64,000 bases of DNA from Alphaproteobacteria bacterium (GTDB lineage: Bacteria; Pseudomonadota; Alphaproteobacteria; Rhizobiales; Rhizobiaceae): positions 1,240,001-1,304,000 of the forward strand of contig JANSYK010000002.1 in NCBI GenBank assembly GCA_024742485.1, given 5' to 3'. Below, piece by piece: positions 11,287 through 28,586 of this stretch (within the stretch, counting starts at the first letter, position 1; each line of letters opens with the position of its first letter). The notes under the pieces are model-generated. The model was given only the letters and a program-made list of their open reading frames with translations. It was not told the origin of the DNA and made no database searches. The translations under genes and the position numbers were made by a program.

Positions 11287-13236
11287 TCAGTCCGTCGCGC
11301 AACCAAACTCGTGGTCCAGGCGATCGGGTCCGGATTGATCGGACACAGCAGACTCGACGCGATGTGGTTTCGCATCCTCCGGTGTCACGTCTTTCGCCCA
11401 GGCGAGGATGGCCGGCCATTGATCCACGATGCTTGCGATGGCGCCATCACCGCCATGTGGCGGCATGCGAACCGATTTGCAGGTCGGGAACCAGGGAACG
11501 TGATCGGTTCCAAGGTAGATTTCTTCGTGTTTGCTGGATATCTGCACGACTGGAACGCCCATCCCAGCTGCCAGATCCGCCACAGACACACCGACGGATA
11601 TGACAAGGTCGCAGGCGCCCAGAAGGCTGCAGGCTCCCACCAGGTCGTTTTTCTGGTCCAGGTCAGTGAAGTGGTGAAGATCAAGTCCGAGACCACGTAC
11701 CGCCTCGACCTCTTCCTGTGCGCAGTCATACTGCACGTTGAGCCAAGTGCAATTCGGCAAGGCCCCGAGCGGCGCAATCTGTTTGCTGTCCATGAGGTAG
11801 AGGTCTCGCGAGGTCACCTGATAGGACGAACGCCAACACACACCGATCACCATTTGATCCGGTTTGACCTGAAGCTGCGCGCGCACCCGGTTTTCCGCGG
11901 CTGCGTATCGTCGGATCCAGGGGGTCTGCTTCTGGTGAAAATCGCTGACCGTCGGTCGAAAGATTGACCCGAGCGAGCCGACGGGAATCTGGTAGTCGAA
12001 TTCCGTGTAAGCCTCTTCCCCGCGGCAATCGAGCTCACCTTCGCAGCGAATCGTCGCCCAGGGAAATGAATGTTCCCAGAGTGGCAGGAGCTTGGGGGAA
12101 CATTCGAACGTCACGTCGCATTCAAGCGCCTGCAAATCCGCGATGACGGAGGCGAAGCGAACTTCATCACCGATTCCCTGCTCGCGCCAGACGAGAAGCC
12201 TTTTGCCACCGATGGATTCTCCCTGCCAACGCGGCAGGTCAAACAGTCGACGCTTGGAGGGAAATTCAGGCCAGCGCCAGCGCGCCTCGTAATTCTTGAA
12301 GCCCTCGGCGACATCGCCGTTCCGAAACTGGAGGAAAGCCAGATTATATCGCCCGGAAACGTGTTCCGGGTTTTTCTCCAGCATGGCTTCGTGGAGCGCT
12401 ATGCCATCAGCCAGGCGGCCCATTTGAGCATAGCACCAGCCAAGATGGGTGATGCACTGGTCCTGTTGAGAGGTCTCCTTTTCGACCAGATCCTCAAGGA
12501 TATCGACGGCGTCTTCGATCCGACCGTGCATCCTGAGATAATAGGCCCAGATGTTGTCGAGTTCGGTCACTTCATCCTGGTTCAGGCGTGACCGATCGAC
12601 GGCATCGCGGTGCCTGGCGATATAGTCAAAGTCCTCCAGGCGTGATGCAACAAACATCCTCCTGAGCAAGAGGCTGGGCGTGACATTGCCTTTGTCGGCA
12701 AGCAGCTTGTCCATCACCTCTTCGGCCTGTTTGTACAAACGCAGGTCGATCAGCATCAGCATCAGATTGATCTGCGGCTCCAATCGGGTGCTGTCGATAT
12801 GATGAGCGCAGGTGAACGCCAGCAGGGCTGCCTGATACCGTTCGGCCATCTTGAGGGCGATGCCGAGATTTTTCCAGGGATCGTAGAGTTTTTCATCGGC
12901 CTTGGTCGCGCGCTTGAAAATTTCGATGGCGACCTCAAGTTCTTTCAACTGAAGAAAGACCACGCCCAGTGAGTTCAGCATCAAGGCATCATTGGGTCGT
13001 TGTTCGACCGCCGCGTTGATCTTGACCAGGGCACCGGTCAGATCGTTGCAGGCGCGCAGGGCCAACCCATGAAAGTGCAGCAGATCAGGGCTCTGGAAGC
13101 CTTGCGTCGCGAGTTTTTCACACAGCGCGAGGCTTTCCTTGTACTTGCCCTTTTTTTGCAGCCTGTGGACCTTCTTCAGCAGTTTCCCCGGAGGCAAAGA
13201 AGTGTCCGGTAGATTTGGCGCGTGCATCGTTTTCAT
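11287..13236 (-). CDS. TPR-glycosyltransferase protein, candidate flagellin glycosyltransferase (FlmG-like)
   Basis: About 649 residues. The N-terminal half (roughly 15-320) is built of tetratricopeptide-type helix pairs (for example DALMLNSLGVVFLQLKELEV and YDPWKNLGIALKMAERYQAA). The C-terminal half starts at KRLLVWREQGIGDEVRFASV and resembles the ADP-heptose-type GT-B domain found in TPR-glycosyltransferase fusions. Caulobacter FlmG has the same layout: its TPR part binds flagellin and its GT part glycosylates it. The gene sits between fliP and the three flagellins, on the opposite strand. The start is uncertain: TTG 13248, ATG 13236 and ATG 13227 are all possible, with no strong ribosome site. 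The FlmG role is inference from architecture and position. Confidence 0.65.
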   Translation of the reverse strand: MKTMHAPNLPDTSLPPGKLLKKVHRLQKKGKYKESLALCEKLATQGFQSPDLLHFHGLALRACNDLTGALVKINAAVEQRPNDALMLNSLGVVFLQLKELEVAIEIFKRATKADEKLYDPWKNLGIALKMAERYQAALLAFTCAHHIDSTRLEPQINLMLMLIDLRLYKQAEEVMDKLLADKGNVTPSLLLRRMFVASRLEDFDYIARHRDAVDRSRLNQDEVTELDNIWAYYLRMHGRIEDAVDILEDLVEKETSQQDQCITHLGWCYAQMGRLADGIALHEAMLEKNPEHVSGRYNLAFLQFRNGDVAEGFKNYEARWRWPEFPSKRRLFDLPRWQGESIGGKRLLVWREQGIGDEVRFASVIADLQALECDVTFECSPKLLPLWEHSFPWATIRCEGELDCRGEEAYTEFDYQIPVGSLGSIFRPTVSDFHQKQTPWIRRYAAAENRVRAQLQVKPDQMVIGVCWRSSYQVTSRDLYLMDSKQIAPLGALPNCTWLNVQYDCAQEEVEAVRGLGLDLHHFTDLDQKNDLVGACSLLGACDLVISVGVSVADLAAGMGVPVVQISSKHEEIYLGTDHVPWFPTCKSVRMPPHGGDGAIASIVDQWPAILAWAKDVTPEDAKPHRVESAVSDQSGPDRLDHEFGCATD

Positions 13237-13248
13237 TCGCAAACCCAA

Positions 13249-13727
13249 ACTGTGTTTTGAAAGGGGCGTGCCGAGGAGGGCGGTGCTTCGCTGCGATGTT
13301 CAATCTTGAGAAAGGCCATCATCCCAATTCAATCTTGTCGCTCCATAGCTAGGGGATGAAGCTTGCGTGTGCCTGAACCGGCGTTCGATAGGGTCCAGGC
13401 CTGGATTGTCTTCCCGTGGCAATCGAATGTTTGAACACAATTCCCGCAGTGCCCAGGAATGCGTTGGATCGTCGGTTGGCAACACCGGTCCGCATGCATA
13501 CGGACGGCTGTCCTTTCAAAGCACTGTTCCCGGGCCGTTGAAAAACCCGCGTCTTCCAGGTGTTTAGAGTTCGTTTACCATAATCTTGTGAAGCGGCACC
13601 CAATTTCGGGCCGCTGGCCTGCTGTTAGCTATTTCGTAACGGGAGGCTGCGAGTGTCGCACCTGCATGACGGCAAAAGCTTTCGACACGATGTTGGGCGC
13701 TGGAGGGCATGACGCCAAACCGCCATC
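13249..13727. other. Intergenic region upstream of the first flagellin
   Basis: No convincing gene. A frame from 13459 runs into the flagellin start but has no family resemblance and biased composition. The stretch holds an imperfect CtrA-type box (13563-13579) and a small inverted repeat AGCGGC/GCCGCT (13592-13615), then enters the flagellin 5' leader. It presumably contains the promoters of both the leftward glycosyltransferase gene and the rightward flagellin. Confidence 0.5.
13563..13579 (+). promoter_or_regulatory. Imperfect CtrA-type box upstream of flagellin 1
   Basis: TTTA, seven bases, TTTACC. It matches the CtrA full-site pattern TTAA-N7-TTAAC with one mismatch per half, about 200 bp before the flagellin start. 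It is weaker than the boxes before flagellins 2 and 3. Confidence 0.3.
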
Positions 13728-13782
13728 ACCGGAATATAGCCCGGTATGTCCCTTCTGTAATGCGTATCTCGGGGACACATAG
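13728..13782 (+). promoter_or_regulatory. Structured 5' leader of flagellin 1
   Basis: Two potential RNA stems precede the start codon. Stem 1 pairs ACCGG (13728-13732) with CCGGT (13741-13745). Stem 2 pairs TGTCCC (13747-13752) with GGGACA (13772-13777), and its 3' arm overlaps the Shine-Dalgarno GGGGA. The other two flagellin leaders have GCCGG/CCGGC in stem 1, so this copy differs by a compensated base pair. This is a plausible target for FlbT-type control. Confidence 0.6.
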
Positions 13783-14748
13783 ATGACCAGCATTAACACC
13801 AATACCGCCGCGATGGCGGCCCTTCAGACCCTTCGGGGCATCAACTCGGGCATGGAAACGACACAGGCTCGTATTTCGTCCGGCCTGAAGGTTGAAACTG
13901 CTTCTGACAACGCCGCCTACTGGTCCATTGCGACCACCATGCGTTCTGACAACAAGGCTTTGGGGACTGTCAAAGACGCACTCGGCCTGGGCGCCGCGAA
14001 AACAGACATTGCTTACACCGGTTTGAACAGTGCCATCGATGTTGTGGACGAAATCAAATCGAAGCTTGTGGCCGCCGCTGAGCCGGGCGTCGACAAGACA
14101 AAGATCGATTCAGAACTGACGGAACTGAAGAACCAGCTGGTCTCGATCACCGAATCGGCATCCTTCTCCGGTGAAAACTGGCTGTACAACACGGCTACAG
14201 CTGCCGCTGGCACCGCGTCCATCATCGGTTCGTTCAACCGTTCGGCAGCCGGCAACGTTTCGACAACAACACTGGATGTTGACGTCAGCGCCACGATCCT
14301 GATCGACACCGCCGATGCCAATCGCGGCCTGCTGACAACCGACATTGATGCCGACCAGCTGCTCGACACACCGACGGCGACGCCGGACAACTACTTCCTG
14401 ATCGACGCCAGCTCGACCGTCGCTGCGACCGGTACAGAAGTATCGCTGTCCGCTGCCACGACCGATGCAGAAGTTGAAGCCATGATCCGGGTCGTCGATT
14501 CGATCATGACCAGCCTGACAGATGCCGCTGCGGACCTTGGTGCCGTCAACTCGCGCATCACCATGCAGGACGACTTCGTTTCGAGCCTGATGGACTCCAT
14601 CGACAAGGGCGTGGGCCGGCTGGTCGATGCTGATATGAGTGAAGAGTCGACCCGCCTGACAGCCCTGCAGACACAGCAGCAGCTCGGTATCCAGGCACTG
14701 TCGATCGCCAACTCCAACTCTCAGAGCATCCTGTCGCTCTTCCGTTAA
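13783..14748 (+). CDS. Flagellin (first of three)
   Basis: A 321-residue flagellin with conserved N-terminal D0/D1 helices (TNTAAMAALQTLRGIN... AYWSIATTMRSDNKAL) and C-terminal helix (GRLVDADMSEESTRLTALQT ... QALSIANSNSQSILSLFR). The variable middle (about 165-230) is short and Thr/Ala/Asp-rich, with no large D2/D3 domain. Flagellin forms the filament and is exported through the FliPQR/FlhA gate. It is about as close to its two neighbours as duplicated paralogues would be. Expression is probably set by the upstream CtrA-like box and the leader structure. Confidence 0.97.
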   Translation: MTSINTNTAAMAALQTLRGINSGMETTQARISSGLKVETASDNAAYWSIATTMRSDNKALGTVKDALGLGAAKTDIAYTGLNSAIDVVDEIKSKLVAAAEPGVDKTKIDSELTELKNQLVSITESASFSGENWLYNTATAAAGTASIIGSFNRSAAGNVSTTTLDVDVSATILIDTADANRGLLTTDIDADQLLDTPTATPDNYFLIDASSTVAATGTEVSLSAATTDAEVEAMIRVVDSIMTSLTDAAADLGAVNSRITMQDDFVSSLMDSIDKGVGRLVDADMSEESTRLTALQTQQQLGIQALSIANSNSQSILSLFR

Positions 14749-14783
14749 GCGCCAGGCACAGCTCTTAAATCCACACCTCCAGG

Positions 14784-14813
14784 CGGGGCGGTCTGAAAGG
14801 ATCGCCCCGTTTT
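14784..14813 (+). terminator. Rho-independent terminator after flagellin 1
   Basis: Perfect GC-rich arms CGGGGCG (14784-14790) and CGCCCCG (14803-14809) with a 12-base loop, followed by TTTT. It lies 36 bp after the flagellin stop, so this flagellin is probably transcribed alone. Confidence 0.75.
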
Positions 14814-14955
14814 CTGTGTGCATTGCCCACAATTTCAAAAAAAATTGTCGGTGCTTTGAACGATCGCGATCCCTAATCCGGGGCGCGATCCTTCGCATTC
14901 TGGATGCCGGCTTTCCCGGAATAGCGGGTTTTTTGCGCCCCGCGATGGTCTAATC

Positions 14956-14987
14956 TTAACAAGAGTTTAATCTTAACAACAAATTAA
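14956..14987 (+). promoter_or_regulatory. Two tandem CtrA-type boxes upstream of flagellin 2
   Basis: Two exact TTAA-N7-TTAA sites stand in series: 14956-14970 (spacer CAAGAGT) and 14973-14987 (spacer CAACAAA). They share the repeated block TCTTAACAA and lie about 200 bp before the start codon, in a locally AT-rich tract (14950-15050). The pattern is the known full CtrA recognition site of alphaproteobacteria. Binding here is inference. Confidence 0.55.
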
Positions 14988-15130
14988 TTATATAAAACAA
15001 GTGGTTATGGTGTTTCTTGTTCAGGATTGATTAACCTTAATATAGTGTTGTGTTGTCATCGAATGACGGACCGGGTTTTGGCCCTTTTGTAGGGGTAAGC
15101 CGTAGGTGAGCATGATGCGACACCGTCGTT

Positions 15131-15186
15131 GCCGGTAACAGACTCCGGCATGTCCCTTCAAGTAAACTGTCAAAAGGGGCAGACAA
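15131..15186 (+). promoter_or_regulatory. Structured 5' leader of flagellin 2
   Basis: Stem 1: GCCGG (15131-15135) with CCGGC (15145-15149). Stem 2: TGTCCC (15151-15156) with GGGGCA (15176-15181), fully paired if one U-G wobble is allowed; its 3' arm overlaps the AGGGG ribosome site. The element keeps the layout and spacing of the other two leaders although the loops differ. Confidence 0.6.
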
Positions 15187-16152
15187 ATGACAAGCATTAT
15201 GACGAACACCGCCGCCATGGCGGCGCTCCAAACCTTGCGGACCATCAATTCGGACCTGGAAATGACACAGGCGCGTATTTCATCCGGATACCGGGTTGAA
15301 ACCGCTTCCGACAATGCGGCCTACTGGTCCATTGCCACGACCATGCGTTCCGACAACAAGGCACTTTCAACGGTCAGCGATGCGCTCGGACTTGGCGCAG
15401 CGAAGGTCGACGTTGCCTATACCGGCATGAACAGTGCAATCGATGTGGTTGATGAAATCAAATCGAAACTGGTCGCAGCCGCTGAACCGGGTGTCGACAA
15501 GGACAAGATCAACTCGGAACTGACGGAACTGAAAAACCAGCTGGTCTCCATAACGGAGTCTGCTTCCTTCAGTGGTGAAAACTGGCTGTACAACACGGCA
15601 ACGGCCGCGGCCGGAACCGCCTCGATCGTTGGATCTTTCAATCGATCATCCGCCGGCAACGTCTCTATCGCGACGTTGGATGTGACGATATCCAGCACGA
15701 TCCTGATCGACACGGCCGATGCCAACCGGGGTATCTTGACCACGGATATCGACGCCGATCAGTTGCTCGATTCTCCGACGGCAACGCCATCCAACTACTT
15801 CCTGATCAATGCCAGCTCGACTGTCGCGGCGACAGGCACTGAAATTGCCCTGTCGGCCGCAACAACCGATGTCGAGGTTGAGGAAATGATCCGTGTGGTC
15901 GACTCGATCATGACGACACTGACCGATTCAGCATCGGATCTGGGTGCGATCAACAGTCGGGTCGGTATGCAGGAGACTTTCGTTTCCAACCTGATGGACT
16001 CGATCAACAAAGGTGTCGGTAGACTTGTCGATGCCGATATGAGCGAGGAGTCGACCCGATTGACCGCGTTGCAGACGCAGCAGCAGCTCGGCATCCAGGC
16101 CCTGTCGATCGCCAACTCCAGCTCGCAGAACATTCTCTCGCTCTTCCGGTAA
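15187..16152 (+). CDS. Flagellin (second of three)
   Basis: A 321-residue paralogue of the flagellin at 13783, nearly co-linear without gaps. The N-terminal (MTSIMTNTAAMAALQTLRTI) and C-terminal (QALSIANSSSQNILSLFR) helices are intact, and differences cluster in the central segment. Long runs of identical residues shared with the first copy point to recent duplication or gene conversion. It has its own upstream region with tandem CtrA-type boxes and a structured leader, so it is an independent transcription unit. Confidence 0.97.
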   Translation: MTSIMTNTAAMAALQTLRTINSDLEMTQARISSGYRVETASDNAAYWSIATTMRSDNKALSTVSDALGLGAAKVDVAYTGMNSAIDVVDEIKSKLVAAAEPGVDKDKINSELTELKNQLVSITESASFSGENWLYNTATAAAGTASIVGSFNRSSAGNVSIATLDVTISSTILIDTADANRGILTTDIDADQLLDSPTATPSNYFLINASSTVAATGTEIALSAATTDVEVEEMIRVVDSIMTTLTDSASDLGAINSRVGMQETFVSNLMDSINKGVGRLVDADMSEESTRLTALQTQQQLGIQALSIANSSSQNILSLFR

Positions 16153-16160
16153 GAGCAGTT

Positions 16161-16263
16161 GATCGGGCCAGGAATTGAGGGCCCGATCGGATCCACCCAT
16201 TTCGGTTGATCCGCGAGGCAAATTGAAAAGTTAAGATACCGTGCCGGCAAGCTGGCGCGGTAT
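16161..16263 (+). terminator. Tandem hairpins after flagellin 2
   Basis: The first hairpin has 9-bp arms GATCGGGCC (16161-16169) and GGCCCGATC (16180-16188). The second has 10-bp arms ATACCGTGCC (16236-16245) and GGCGCGGTAT (16254-16263; one wobble). Neither has a good T-tract, so termination may be Rho-aided or the hairpins may protect the mRNA end. Confidence 0.5.
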
Positions 16264-16339
16264 TCGCCGTTTAAAAACAAGAGTTTACCTGATATTCGTT
16301 TACGATTTGGTGACGAAATTTAACAACTTGCAAACCCGG

Positions 16340-16355
16340 TTAAGGGTCTGTTAAC
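16340..16355 (+). promoter_or_regulatory. CtrA-type box upstream of flagellin 3
   Basis: An exact full site, TTAA, GGGTCTG, TTAAC, about 143 bp before the start codon. It continues as CCAT, which agrees with extended CtrA sites. Confidence 0.55.
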
Positions 16356-16440
16356 CATAGTTTCGGTATCTCTGATGCCAGAACGGTGGGTTGATCCCTT
16401 CTCGACAAGTGGTCAGCAAGCATGATGCGCAATCACCGTT

Positions 16441-16497
16441 GCCGGTGATTGAAACCCGGCATGTCCCAACAAGATATCTGTCTACAGGGACAGCCAG
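16441..16497 (+). promoter_or_regulatory. Structured 5' leader of flagellin 3
   Basis: Stem 1: GCCGG (16441-16445) with CCGGC (16456-16460). Stem 2: TGTCCC (16462-16467) with GGGACA (16487-16492), overlapping the ribosome site AGGGA. A block AGCATGATGCG lies 25-30 bp further upstream and is shared with the leader of flagellin 2. Confidence 0.6.
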
Positions 16498-17466
16498 ATG
16501 ACCAGCATTATGACCAACGCAGCCGCCATGGCTGCTCTGCAGACCCTCCGCAGCATCAACAATGATCTTGAGATGGTACAGGCACGGATCTCATCGGGTT
16601 ATCGTGTCGAGACAGCCGGTGACAATGCGGCTTATTGGTCCATTGCAACCACCATGCGTTCCGACAACAAGGCCCTGTCCACTGTCAGCGATGCGCTTGG
16701 TCTTGGGGCCTCGAAAGTGGATCTGGCCTATACCGGCATGAACAGCGCCATCGAGGTTGTGACCGAGGCGAAGGCCAAACTGGTGGCAGCGCGGGAACCC
16801 GGTGTCGACAAAACGAAAATCGACAAGGAGCTGGTTCAGTTGAAGAGCCAGCTGATATCGGTCGCCGAATCGGCATCGTTCAGTGGTGAGAACTGGCTGT
16901 TCAACGCCGCGGCGGGCGGTGCCGGAACGCGCTCCATCGTTGGCTCCTTCAACCGGTCGACGGCCGGTAATGTGTCGGTTGCGACGCTTGATATCGATGT
17001 CAGCCAGACAATTCTGATCGATACGGACGATGCGCTGGGCGGCATTCTGACCAAGGACATTGATGCGGATTTGCTGCTGGAAACGCCGACGACAACACCG
17101 GACAACTGGTTCCTTGTGGATGCGGGATCCACAACCGCGGCAACGGGACAGGAGATCACGCTGACGGCTGCGACGACTGACGCCGAGGTCGATGCGATGA
17201 TCCGTGTTGTCGACTCGATATTGACCCAACTGACGGATGCGGCCTCAAATCTCGGCGCCATCAACAAGCGTGTCGCCATGCAGGAAAGTTTCGTGACCAA
17301 CCTGATGGATTCCATCGACAAGGGCGTCGGCCGTCTTGTTGACGCCGACATGAACGAGGAATCGACACGGCTACAGGCCCTTCAGACGCAACAGCAGCTG
17401 GGTATTCAATCCCTGTCGATCGCAAATTCGAATCCGCAGAACATCCTGACATTGTTCCAGCGATAG
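16498..17466 (+). CDS. Flagellin (third of three)
   Basis: The 322-residue flagellin is the most divergent of the three. It has VTEAKAKLVAAREPGVDKTK in place of the VDEIKSKL segment, a central AAAGGAGTRSIVG, and a C-terminus ending LTLFQR rather than LSLFR. The D0/D1 helices are intact and the mid-domain is short. Like the others it has a private promoter region and leader. A short hairpin (GGACGC/GCGTCC, 17473-17491) follows the stop. Confidence 0.96.
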   Translation: MTSIMTNAAAMAALQTLRSINNDLEMVQARISSGYRVETAGDNAAYWSIATTMRSDNKALSTVSDALGLGASKVDLAYTGMNSAIEVVTEAKAKLVAAREPGVDKTKIDKELVQLKSQLISVAESASFSGENWLFNAAAGGAGTRSIVGSFNRSTAGNVSVATLDIDVSQTILIDTDDALGGILTKDIDADLLLETPTTTPDNWFLVDAGSTTAATGQEITLTAATTDAEVDAMIRVVDSILTQLTDAASNLGAINKRVAMQESFVTNLMDSIDKGVGRLVDADMNEESTRLQALQTQQQLGIQSLSIANSNPQNILTLFQR

Positions 17467-27792: not shown

Positions 27793-28140
27793 ATGTATCA
27801 GTTCTCATATGCGGAAGTGCAGCAAGATGCAGTTGCTGACTCCAAAGACCGTGAGCGGCAGGTTCTCGACAAATCGATCAAGATGCTGGAAAGCGCACGA
27901 GAGGCCGGACCGCGCTCGCGCGAATCGATCGAAGCCCTGTTCTTCGTCAATCGCGTCTGGGTGCGGTTTATCGAGGATCTTGGTTCACCGGAAAACGAAT
28001 TGGAGCAGGAACTGCGCGCCAACCTCATATCGATCGGCATATGGGTTCTTCGGGAAACAGAAAAGATACGGATCGGCGAGTCGGAGAATTTCGACGGCAT
28101 CATCGACATTTCCTCCATCATCCGGGACGGTCTGCAATGA
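27793..28140 (+). CDS. flaF: Flagellar biosynthesis regulator FlaF
   Basis: The 115-residue product has the FlaF layout: a short N-terminus ([20 protein letters not shown]) and a helical body ending in ..[10 protein letters not shown]. FlaF and FlbT are paired regulators of flagellin synthesis in alphaproteobacteria; in Caulobacter, FlaF is needed for flagellin production and FlbT restrains it. The gene overlaps flbT by four bases. Confidence 0.92.
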
Positions 28141-28586
28141 AGAGTTCGCTGAGAATATCCCTGAAAACCGGTGAGAAAATCTTCATCAACGGTGCTGTCC
28201 TGAAAGTGGACCGCAAGGTCGGTCTGGAGTTTTTGAACGATGTGACGTTCCTGCTGGAAAACCACGTTCTCCAGCCGGAAGATGCCTCCACGCCACTGCG
28301 TCAGCTCTACTTCATCGTCCAGATGATGCTGATCAATCCGGACGGGGCAGACCAGGCACAGGCCATGTTCCGCAAATCGGTGGTGATGCTTTTGAACTGT
28401 TTTCAAAATGAGCAGATCCTGACGGACCTCAAGCATATCGACGCGATGGTAACAGAGGGACGTGTCTTTGAGGCCCTCAAGACCATCCGCACCCTCTACA
28501 AGCTTGAGGATGAAATCCTCAGCAACCGTCAAATGCCGGTCGAAACACTGGAACAGATCACAAAGGAGATCGCACCATGGCGGTAG
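28137..28586 (+). CDS. flbT: Flagellin post-transcriptional regulator FlbT
   Basis: A 149-residue protein starting [33 protein letters not shown], the FlbT signature region. In Caulobacter, FlbT acts on the 5' untranslated region of flagellin mRNA and promotes its decay. In some rhizobial relatives it acts positively. The conserved stem structures before all three flagellins here are obvious candidate targets. It is coupled to flaF and overlaps flgD by ten bases. Confidence 0.94.

Follow-up and report, generated by a model that had tools for sequence, protein, structure and literature searches.

A conserved leader with three predicted hairpins precedes lateral-type flagellin genes of Rhizobiales and, in part, their chemotaxis genes

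Introduction

Reviews describe FlbT of Caulobacter as acting on the 5′ leaders of flagellin messenger RNAs (mRNAs) (PMC3930126, PMC4347634). FlbT is also reported to be required for flagellin in Brucella (PMC8781033) and for the lateral flagellin of Bradyrhizobium (PMC8429497), and flagellin production in Brucella melitensis is stated to be independent of the completion of basal body and hook (PMC8781033). In Sinorhizobium meliloti the class III motility genes are given as the flagellin and chemotaxis genes (PMC8429497). Here we analyse the leaders of three flagellin genes in a 64,000-nucleotide (nt) stretch of a Rhizobiaceae genome (GCA_024742485.1, contig JANSYK010000002.1, positions 1,240,001 to 1,304,000; hereafter “the window”, in whose coordinates positions are given). 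Each leader carries two stems, stem 1 and stem 2, preceded by a small hairpin, hairpin A. We describe this leader element, its distribution over the order Rhizobiales, and FlbT as a candidate ligand.

Results

Flagellin leaders of the window

The window contains three flagellin genes in tandem on the forward strand, flagellin 1 (13783..14748, 321 aa), flagellin 2 (15187..16152, 321 aa) and flagellin 3 (16498..17466, 322 aa), with start codons at 13783, 15187 and 16498; all leader features below lie on the same strand. The first-pass annotation of this DNA had described one layout at all three genes, stem 1 followed by stem 2 over the Shine-Dalgarno sequence, with an A-T pair in stem 1 of flagellin 1 where copies 2 and 3 have G-C, and a U-G wobble in stem 2 of copy 2. 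The sequence and a pair check bear out each of these points. Its count of two stems falls short, as a third hairpin upstream had been overlooked, which in flagellin 1 (13706..13716) lies outside the interval assigned to the feature (13728..16497).

Stem 1 reads ACCGG/CCGGT in the flagellin 1 leader (13728..13745; pairing probability P 0.94-0.96) and GCCGG/CCGGC in the leaders of flagellin 2 (15131..15149; P 1.0) and flagellin 3 (16441..16460; P 0.0). The closing pair is thus A-T at 13728:13745 of copy 1; it is G-C in the other two, at 15131:15149 (copy 2) and 16441:16460 (copy 3). In the lowest-energy fold of copy 3, a perfect 9-bp hairpin, CAATCACCG/CGGTGATTG (16430..16451, arms 16430-16438/16443-16451), occupies the 5′ arm of stem 1 and excludes it; this hairpin is possibly a copy-specific switch. 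Stem 2 is TGTCCC/GGGACA in copy 1 (13747..13777, arms 13747-13752/13772-13777; P 0.39-0.76) and copy 3 (16462..16492, arms 16462-16467/16487-16492; P 0.997), and TGTCCC/GGGGCA with one U-G in copy 2 (15151..15181, arms 15151-15156/15176-15181; P 0.97). Only standard pairs occur in stems 1 and 2 of all three copies. The G-run of stem 2 is the Shine-Dalgarno sequence in every leader (in flagellin 1 the 3′ arm overlaps GGGGA), so that the ribosome site lies within a stem, as in a Shine-Dalgarno-sequestering hairpin. Its mean unpaired probability is 0.18-0.49, 0.004-0.005 and 0.20 in copies 1 to 3.

Hairpin A has the form GGC-AUGAC-GCC in the flagellin 1 leader (13706..13716, genome pattern site C102:1253707; P 0.33-0.67) and GC-AUGAU-GC in the other two (15110..15118 and 16420..16428). 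In copy 2 the outer A/G pair is unformed, and single-sequence folding prefers a long-range helix for this region (P of hairpin A 0.0-0.01); copy 3 gave P 0.0 for hairpin A. As single-sequence folding does not favour it in copies 2 and 3, hairpin A may need a partner to form. Folding z-scores of the single leaders were -0.81, -2.45 and -4.48 for short stretches and 0.35, -1.20 and -3.28 for longer ones (copies 1 to 3). Because these values are modest, the case rests on comparison.

Comparative evidence for stem 1 and hairpin A

Seventy-five Rhizobiaceae loci from a scan of named genomes, together with further loci, gave 230 distinct flagellin genes as defined by a sequence rule. The string CCGG-N2-TGTCCC was found exactly in 176 out of the 230 leaders, within two changes in 34, and was absent by that rule from 20, often from the final flagellin gene in a Rhizobium-like locus. 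The last copy read in many such loci (L101, L102, L109, L110, L073 and L087) has no TGTCCC, and by eye GGGGCA could find another partner there in a GATGCCC that follows hairpin A. Both CCGG arms were present, by our own rule, in 200 of the 230 leaders, and the stem 1 loop is mostly 5 to 15 nt long. The outermost pair of stem 1 (x:x′) in these 200 is A-T in 53, G-C in 40, G-T in 38, T-A in 6, C-G in 1 and T-G in 1.

We aligned 81 diverse leaders (alignment A1) without using structure, and RNAalifold recovered stems 1 and 2 from this alignment. Over the three hairpins, 93.4% of cells were paired, compared with 89.4% (standard deviation, sd, 0.4) after shuffling of arms and 30-48% with partners slid out of register. 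Both sides had changed in 51 cells versus 15.4 after shuffling, and 0 out of 500 shuffles reached either the observed pairing or the observed number of double changes.

For covariation we wrote an R-scape-like, tree-aware null in which substitutions are re-dealt along the tree. Among 5886 pairs in 223 Rhizobiaceae leaders, the outer pair of stem 1 came third and the pair made by the ends of an upstream block, GCATGANGC, came fifth. This block is the mini-hairpin N-GC-AUGAN-GC-N′ that we call hairpin A, with a near-invariant AUGA loop. The signal in this set was weak: x:x′ had E-values of 11 and 3 over all pairs (two trees), and of 0.03 and 0.008 when only the 15 pairs tested are counted. With 297 leaders, x:x′ ranked first of 3486 column pairs (E 0.002 over 21 pairs tested), and the closing and next pairs of hairpin A ranked sixth and eighth (E 0.041 and 0.076 over the same 21). 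The fifth-ranked pair, two places out in hairpin A, is formed in only 80 of 263 leaders, and its signal is therefore probably due to ancestry. On 22 branches (hairpin A 6, stem 1 11, stem 2 5) both sides changed with pairing kept; 30 nulls gave 7.3 such branches on average and 12 at most.

The closing pair of hairpin A was kept in 207 of 208 leaders (G-C 187, A-T 11, G-T 9, unpaired 1). The next pair, seen as G-C, G-T, A-T, T-A and C-G, was kept in 145 of 208 versus 107 expected from base composition; past the third pair there is no extension, with 67 of 208 paired versus 86 expected. Of 282 leaders read, 275 have a CCGG following hairpin A; the linker to stem 1 is 12-14 nt long in 266 of these, with 12 nt (131) and 13 nt (114) at similar frequency. 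The AUGAN loop lacks symmetry: its A is fixed and the palindromic partner N is free. As a separate observation, 50-nt stretches 5′ of hairpin A fold slightly better than their shuffles (mean z -1.18; 48 of 199 below -2).

Stem 2 and the ribosome binding site

The 5′ arm of stem 2, TGTCCC, is nearly invariant and its partner varies one-sidedly between GGGACA and GGGGCA (the variable pair was TG in 139 and TA in 135 of the 297 leaders). Five of the 22 double-change branches fell on stem 2, compared with about 3 in the null. When arms were swapped among 208 non-redundant leaders, the native arms paired at -10.13 kcal/mol versus -9.72 (sd 0.08) for swapped ones; 18 of 303 leaders had no anchor and were dropped from this set. 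In family f18 stem 2 is wholly replaced by GTCTTTC with GAAAGAC, and at locus L207 it is TGTTCC with GGAACA.

Three results tell against a stem held by pairing. No stem 2 pair covaried in the tree-aware test of the 297 leaders. The 44 of 208 leaders that depart from TGTCCC paired no better with their own 3′ arm than with those of others (-6.50 versus -6.44 kcal/mol), and in genus g36 stem 2 is lost. Taking the excess of arm pairing and the replacements in f18 and L207 together with the missing covariation and the loss in g36, we read stem 2, from these sequences, as probably a real ribosome-site stem in most members, under constraint at the sequence level as well, and dispensable in some. The first-pass annotation had argued from conserved pairing for an RNA structure, which an absence of covariation in relatives would have spoken against. 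Covariation of x:x′ and of hairpin A supports its argument; for stem 2, conservation and the f18 replacement do so, and covariation does not.

Chemotaxis copies

A whole-genome scan revealed a recurrent non-flagellin site 25-31 kb from the flagellins in 11 genomes with both on one contig. In the genome of the window this site falls beyond the window itself (C102:1223266), and the genes after it encode a methyl-accepting chemotaxis protein, CheY, CheA, CheW, CheR, CheB and CheD, and then FliF. In the 13 Rhizobiaceae genomes read, this one included, hairpin A joined by the linker to stem 1 heads the che operon; stem 2 is missing there, and a long distance separates the element from the start codon. 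The next gene encodes a chemoreceptor or a protoglobin-domain protein; in G019 it is a STAS-domain protein followed by a CheY-like one. We read 16 chemotaxis-side sites, including L235, L236 and L166 (the last at an open reading frame (ORF) without a Pfam match, with a six-base loop). The outer pair of hairpin A was kept in 16 of 16 and x:x′ in 14 of 16, in a sample that is not unbiased because its members were found with the model or the pattern. TTAACC stands 51-71 nt from the element in 10 of the 11 copies in which it was found. Hairpin A and stem 1 also precede three chemoreceptor genes, from families f2 and f42 (L235:351-436, L236:387-472 and L238:397-468), and in the f2 copies the element comes directly before the gene’s own start codon, with a G-rich ribosome site.

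In the whole-genome scan, the three flagellins and the che operon stand at the top of the model matches for this genome. Six other pattern sites that we fetched lie inside open frames of more than 130 codons, one of them of only 160; two further sites that recur in relatives are outside that set. Since hairpin A and stem 1 also head the che operon, the element marks flagellin and chemotaxis genes, and not basal-body operons, which is the composition of the class III regulon. The first-pass annotation had treated the structure as a matter of flagellin alone, a scope too narrow, as half of the element also stands at chemotaxis genes. Because part of the flagellin leader also heads chemotaxis messages, the leader element is likely a shared control point of late motility genes.

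Distribution over the order and class

The first-pass annotation had proposed a covariance-model search of flagellin leaders across the order. Our model R2 covers the three hairpins, and only f1 and f2 of the matched families contributed to it. It matched 63 of 249 Rhizobiales genomes at E ≤ 0.02, strongly in 14 families (f1, f2, f11, f16, f18, f23, f28, f30, f35, f36, f41, f42, f44 and f45). The remaining 186 genomes had no match at this threshold, whereas FlbT is encoded in 175 of the 249. We read 93 distinct sites; the 101 entries behind them, with eight sites entered twice, are made up of 73 of 76 hits and 28 loci of the order scan. By the sequence rule 77 are at flagellin starts; four more resemble flagellins or are truncated at a contig end (L266, L281, L282 and L283), three precede chemoreceptor genes according to Pfam (L235, L236 and L238), one precedes a 274-aa ORF (L277), and eight are in other places. 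The leader at L277 (minus strand, start codon 1617) has all three hairpins, and its ORF, without a Pfam match, lies between f45 flagellins.

In a scan of 240 genomes of the class (a few from the order, under stricter filters), R2 gave seven weak matches besides those of the genome of the window (E 7.6e-4 to 8.4e-3). None was at a flagellin and six were inside long ORFs. No Rfam family matches the leader. We found no description of it in the open-access literature searched; an earlier notice of a flagellin leader hairpin in a single species is possible elsewhere.

Flagellar systems and FlbT

Besides the order genomes counted above, flbT is encoded in the genome of the window and in 29 of 41 relatives. 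FlbT matches in the order are of two lengths, long (369-372 nt) and short (up to 366 nt), and the two forms differ clearly in sequence; this comparison includes six correctly read frames and the window’s own, and excludes the lateral frames of G069 and G270 and the subpolar frames of G270 and G273. Among the 150 matches listed, 37 are long. The element lies no more than 40 kb from 26 of these, at another place in the genome for 5, and is absent for 6. The corresponding numbers for the 113 short ones are 3, 11 and 99. The tally takes one best site per genome (two for G070), leaves out weak non-flagellin hits (G036, G113, G151, G184, G237 and G277) and G281, where no flagellin was seen, and keeps four weak flagellin hits (G193, G260, G098 and G217). 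Sixteen element-bearing genomes have no FlbT among the 150 matches listed.

Five listed genomes carry both FlbT forms and have two flagellar systems. Of their 40 flagellin-domain matches 30 were fetched, and seven of the fetched loci have the element. The seven are all the flagellins near the long FlbT, leaving aside an FlgL-like gene beside FlbT, and the other 23 loci are without it. Third-type flagellins without the element also occur in some dual-system genomes (G273:C2:1645443-1649508, G270:C7:637088 and G177:C22:63269). The distribution of the element follows that of the lateral-type flagellar system with its FlbT subtype, and not that of the other FlbT subfamily. A lateral system of Hoeflea, Sinorhizobium, Agrobacterium, Mesorhizobium, Methylobacterium and Bosea is reported to be shared with Bradyrhizobium (PMC6406911), and we infer that the long-FlbT system is the one common to these genera.

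Window genes and promoter boxes

The window encodes a long, lateral-system FlbT, assigned by the alignment of the two types (28137..28586, forward strand; Pfam PF07378, E 3e-43); the first-pass annotation had noted flbT in the window. We consider it a candidate ligand of the element; no solved structure was matched by its sequence. FlaF, a candidate partner, lies at 27793..28140 on the same strand (Pfam PF07309, E 2.8e-35).

CtrA-like boxes lie 5′ of each leader on the forward strand, at 13563..13578 (two mismatches), 15020..15035 (one mismatch) and 16340..16355 (TTAAGGGTCTGTTAAC, zero mismatches), counted against TTAA-N7-TTAAC, which we take to be the CtrA box consensus. Such a box is upstream in 201 of 214 Rhizobiaceae leaders, compared with 71 of 214 in a reversed-sequence control, and its commonest distance to hairpin A is 60-69 nt (109 leaders). 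A reading of GCCGGTAA by what we assume to be the sigma-28 consensus was dropped, because the block is itself base-paired and the CtrA-like box stands upstream of it; no search for FliA was made. CtrA motifs have been reported before flaA, flaC, flaD, mcpE and mcpY (PMC3616915).

The nearest named relatives of the window flagellins are those of a Rhizobiaceae metagenome-assembled genome, Nitratireductor sp. XY-223 and Hoeflea species. Downstream of flagellin 1, a GC-rich hairpin with a short T-run (14760-14816) is probably its terminator; the Rfam Atu_C4 match there is below threshold (20.6 bits against a cut-off of 80). Divergent from the flagellins, a gene on the minus strand (11287-13248) encodes a 653-aa tetratricopeptide repeat protein (Pfam TPR families), the C-terminal half of which presumably resembles a flagellin glycosyltransferase. 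Contig C3 of the same assembly (4.2 kb; L291) carries a distant flagellin of another type with an ordinary GGAGA leader, and is perhaps a contaminant.

Discussion

We are highly confident that these leaders form a conserved structured RNA element, and we think that it probably acts after transcription. The compensatory pairing, near-invariant loop, near-fixed spacing and regulon-like distribution call for a trans factor. FlbT is a plausible one and the best candidate, by analogy with the literature. The first-pass annotation had named it too; subtype tracking and published work make the proposal plausible, although the whole system co-segregates. It had also suggested a translational switch tied to hook completion, a link that would be conjectural and with which the statement on Brucella melitensis (PMC8781033) does not accord. 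Whether FlbT, or a complex containing it, is the ligand we regard as an even call.

In the model that we favour, a CtrA-type promoter would start transcription 5′ of hairpin A, and the nascent mRNA would fold into hairpin A with its AUGAN loop, the linker of mostly 12-14 nt and stem 1, to which flagellin mRNAs would add stem 2. Stem 2, with the Shine-Dalgarno sequence in its 3′ arm, would by default keep the ribosome site shut, in part or in full. Hairpin A together with stem 1 would serve as a recognition platform for a trans factor of the lateral system, most probably FlbT, with FlaF or flagellin as possible partners, and this factor would set the translation or stability of the flagellin mRNA. 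The same platform without stem 2 may control the che mRNA. The fold in the cell, the direction of control and any tie to flagellar assembly would all follow from comparison and analogy. For this model as a whole, a leader of late motility messages read by FlbT and gated by stem 2, we see the case for and against as balanced.

Besides the points on stem 2 given above, several observations weigh against the model. In partition-function folding stem 1 does not form in copy 3, and hairpin A has only 2-3 bp, with the low probabilities reported for the three copies. The x:x′ pair is paired in 139 of the 200 leaders and unpaired in 61, and none of the covarying pairs is significant across all 3486 (best E 0.33, x:x′). 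Caulobacter, a control genome, encodes FlbT, and the class scan nonetheless found no flagellin match outside the order. Six of the 37 long-type FlbT among the matches listed are in genomes without the element, and FlbT is not singled out, because the whole flagellar system segregates together. The rhizobial class III activators named in the literature cited are FliM and Orf38, not FlbT (PMC8429497). Finally, the che copies are far from the start codon, and the shared part therefore cannot mask a ribosome site there. This points to a binding site rather than a ribosome mask, with an effect on transcription or stability possible.

One alternative is an action at transcription. Hairpin A and stem 1 could be promoter-proximal RNA (for a pause, antitermination or Rho-control) or a DNA operator for a class III regulator, with stem 2 a separate flagellin feature. 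The distance of the element to TTAACC or the CtrA-like box is similar at flagellin and che copies and the start-codon distance differs; both hairpins are palindromic and readable as DNA; and FliM and Orf38, as just noted, activate class III genes. A DNA operator fits poorly with a stem 1 loop of mostly 5 to 15 nt, unlike a DNA dimer site, with the asymmetric AUGAN loop, and with compensatory changes that preserve pairing, not sequence. These same features do not distinguish an RNA that acts on polymerase from one that acts on ribosomes. The che copies and the role of FliM and Orf38 are why we place the FlbT model at even chances, and regard an element acting at transcription as unlikely while giving it real weight.

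A passive role is less probable still, and we think it doubtful. The hairpins would then do no more than shield late, abundant mRNAs at their 5′ ends and adjust how ribosomes load, with no regulator. Flagellin mRNA is abundant, and stem 2, predicted to be strong in copies 2 and 3, would by itself tune initiation; the AUGA loop, the linker length and the system specificity point instead to recognition.

Two further explanations were rejected. The sequence of hairpin A could pair with flagellin codons 3-6 (CATGATGC with GCATTATG) and close the start region, with hairpin A as the open state. This long-range switch is predicted in copies 2 and 3, and is very improbable given partner swapping (native versus swapped -9.75 and -9.91, sd 0.09, in Rhizobiaceae; -8.19 and -7.99, sd 0.17, in the order set) and che copies that have the element without a codon 3-6 partner. 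The slimmest chance goes to a leader peptide opened by the AUG of hairpin A and controlling flagellin. In copies 2 and 3 that AUG does open a frame of eight codons that stops at the loop of stem 1, and 62 of 282 leaders give eight codons, but the frames relative to flagellin (100, 96 and 86 of the 282) show no conservation and linkers of 12 and 13 nt are about equally common.

Returning to the model with FlbT, a wider version of it can be put forward tentatively, and we think it may well not hold in full. The shared hairpin module would be the missing cis signal of the rhizobial step from class II to class III. A lateral-type FlbT co-evolved with the AUGA loop would read it, and the FlbT and mRNAs of the other system would do without the module, so that two FlbT paralogs would sort two pools of flagellin mRNA by RNA shape. 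Mutational work can start from this defined, widely conserved element, whose loop is fixed, which includes a stem at the ribosome site and which stands at two kinds of target gene; the dual-system genomes supply an internal control.

Comparison with known systems

The flg-Rhizobiales RNA motif (RF01736) resembles the element in being a three-stem cis element of flagellar genes in the same order (PMC3765529). Its model gave no match in the window, at the leaders (E up to 5), in the genome of the window or in 10 Rhizobiaceae genomes, and matched 15 of 121 order genomes, above the cut-off in 2. In 6 of 6 loci read (L111-L116, of other families) it precedes an ORF that we take to be flgF-like, whereas the element described here precedes flagellin or chemotaxis genes. 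Given the lack of a model match and the different downstream gene, we reject membership in this family.

The flaA leader of Campylobacter, under CsrA and FliW, is likewise a flagellin mRNA leader controlled by an RNA-binding protein (PMC4894983). Unlike in that system, the hairpin A loop (AUGAN) contains no GGA, and the GGA of stem 2 is not conserved, because GGGGCA is about as frequent as GGGACA. We rejected a CsrA-regulated leader, as no conserved GGA is presented in a loop.

The other systems compared involve FlbT. The fljK leader of Caulobacter is an alphaproteobacterial flagellin leader in a genome that encodes both FlbT and FlaF, and translation has been proposed as its controlled step (PMC3930126, PMC7591256). 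It differs, as compared by description only, in that no three-hairpin match occurs at flagellins outside the order, and in that Caulobacter flagellin genes are described as RpoN-dependent (PMC3930126), whereas the boxes found here are CtrA-like. For fliC of Brucella and lafA of Bradyrhizobium, also compared by description, the portions of the sources available to us describe no leader structure (PMC8781033, PMC8429497). These two share with the leaders of the window a flagellin for which FlbT is needed, or is here proposed to act (PMC8781033, PMC8429497), and the likeness to lafA goes further, as the lateral-type flagellins of family f35, which looks Bradyrhizobium-like with its two systems, carry the element.

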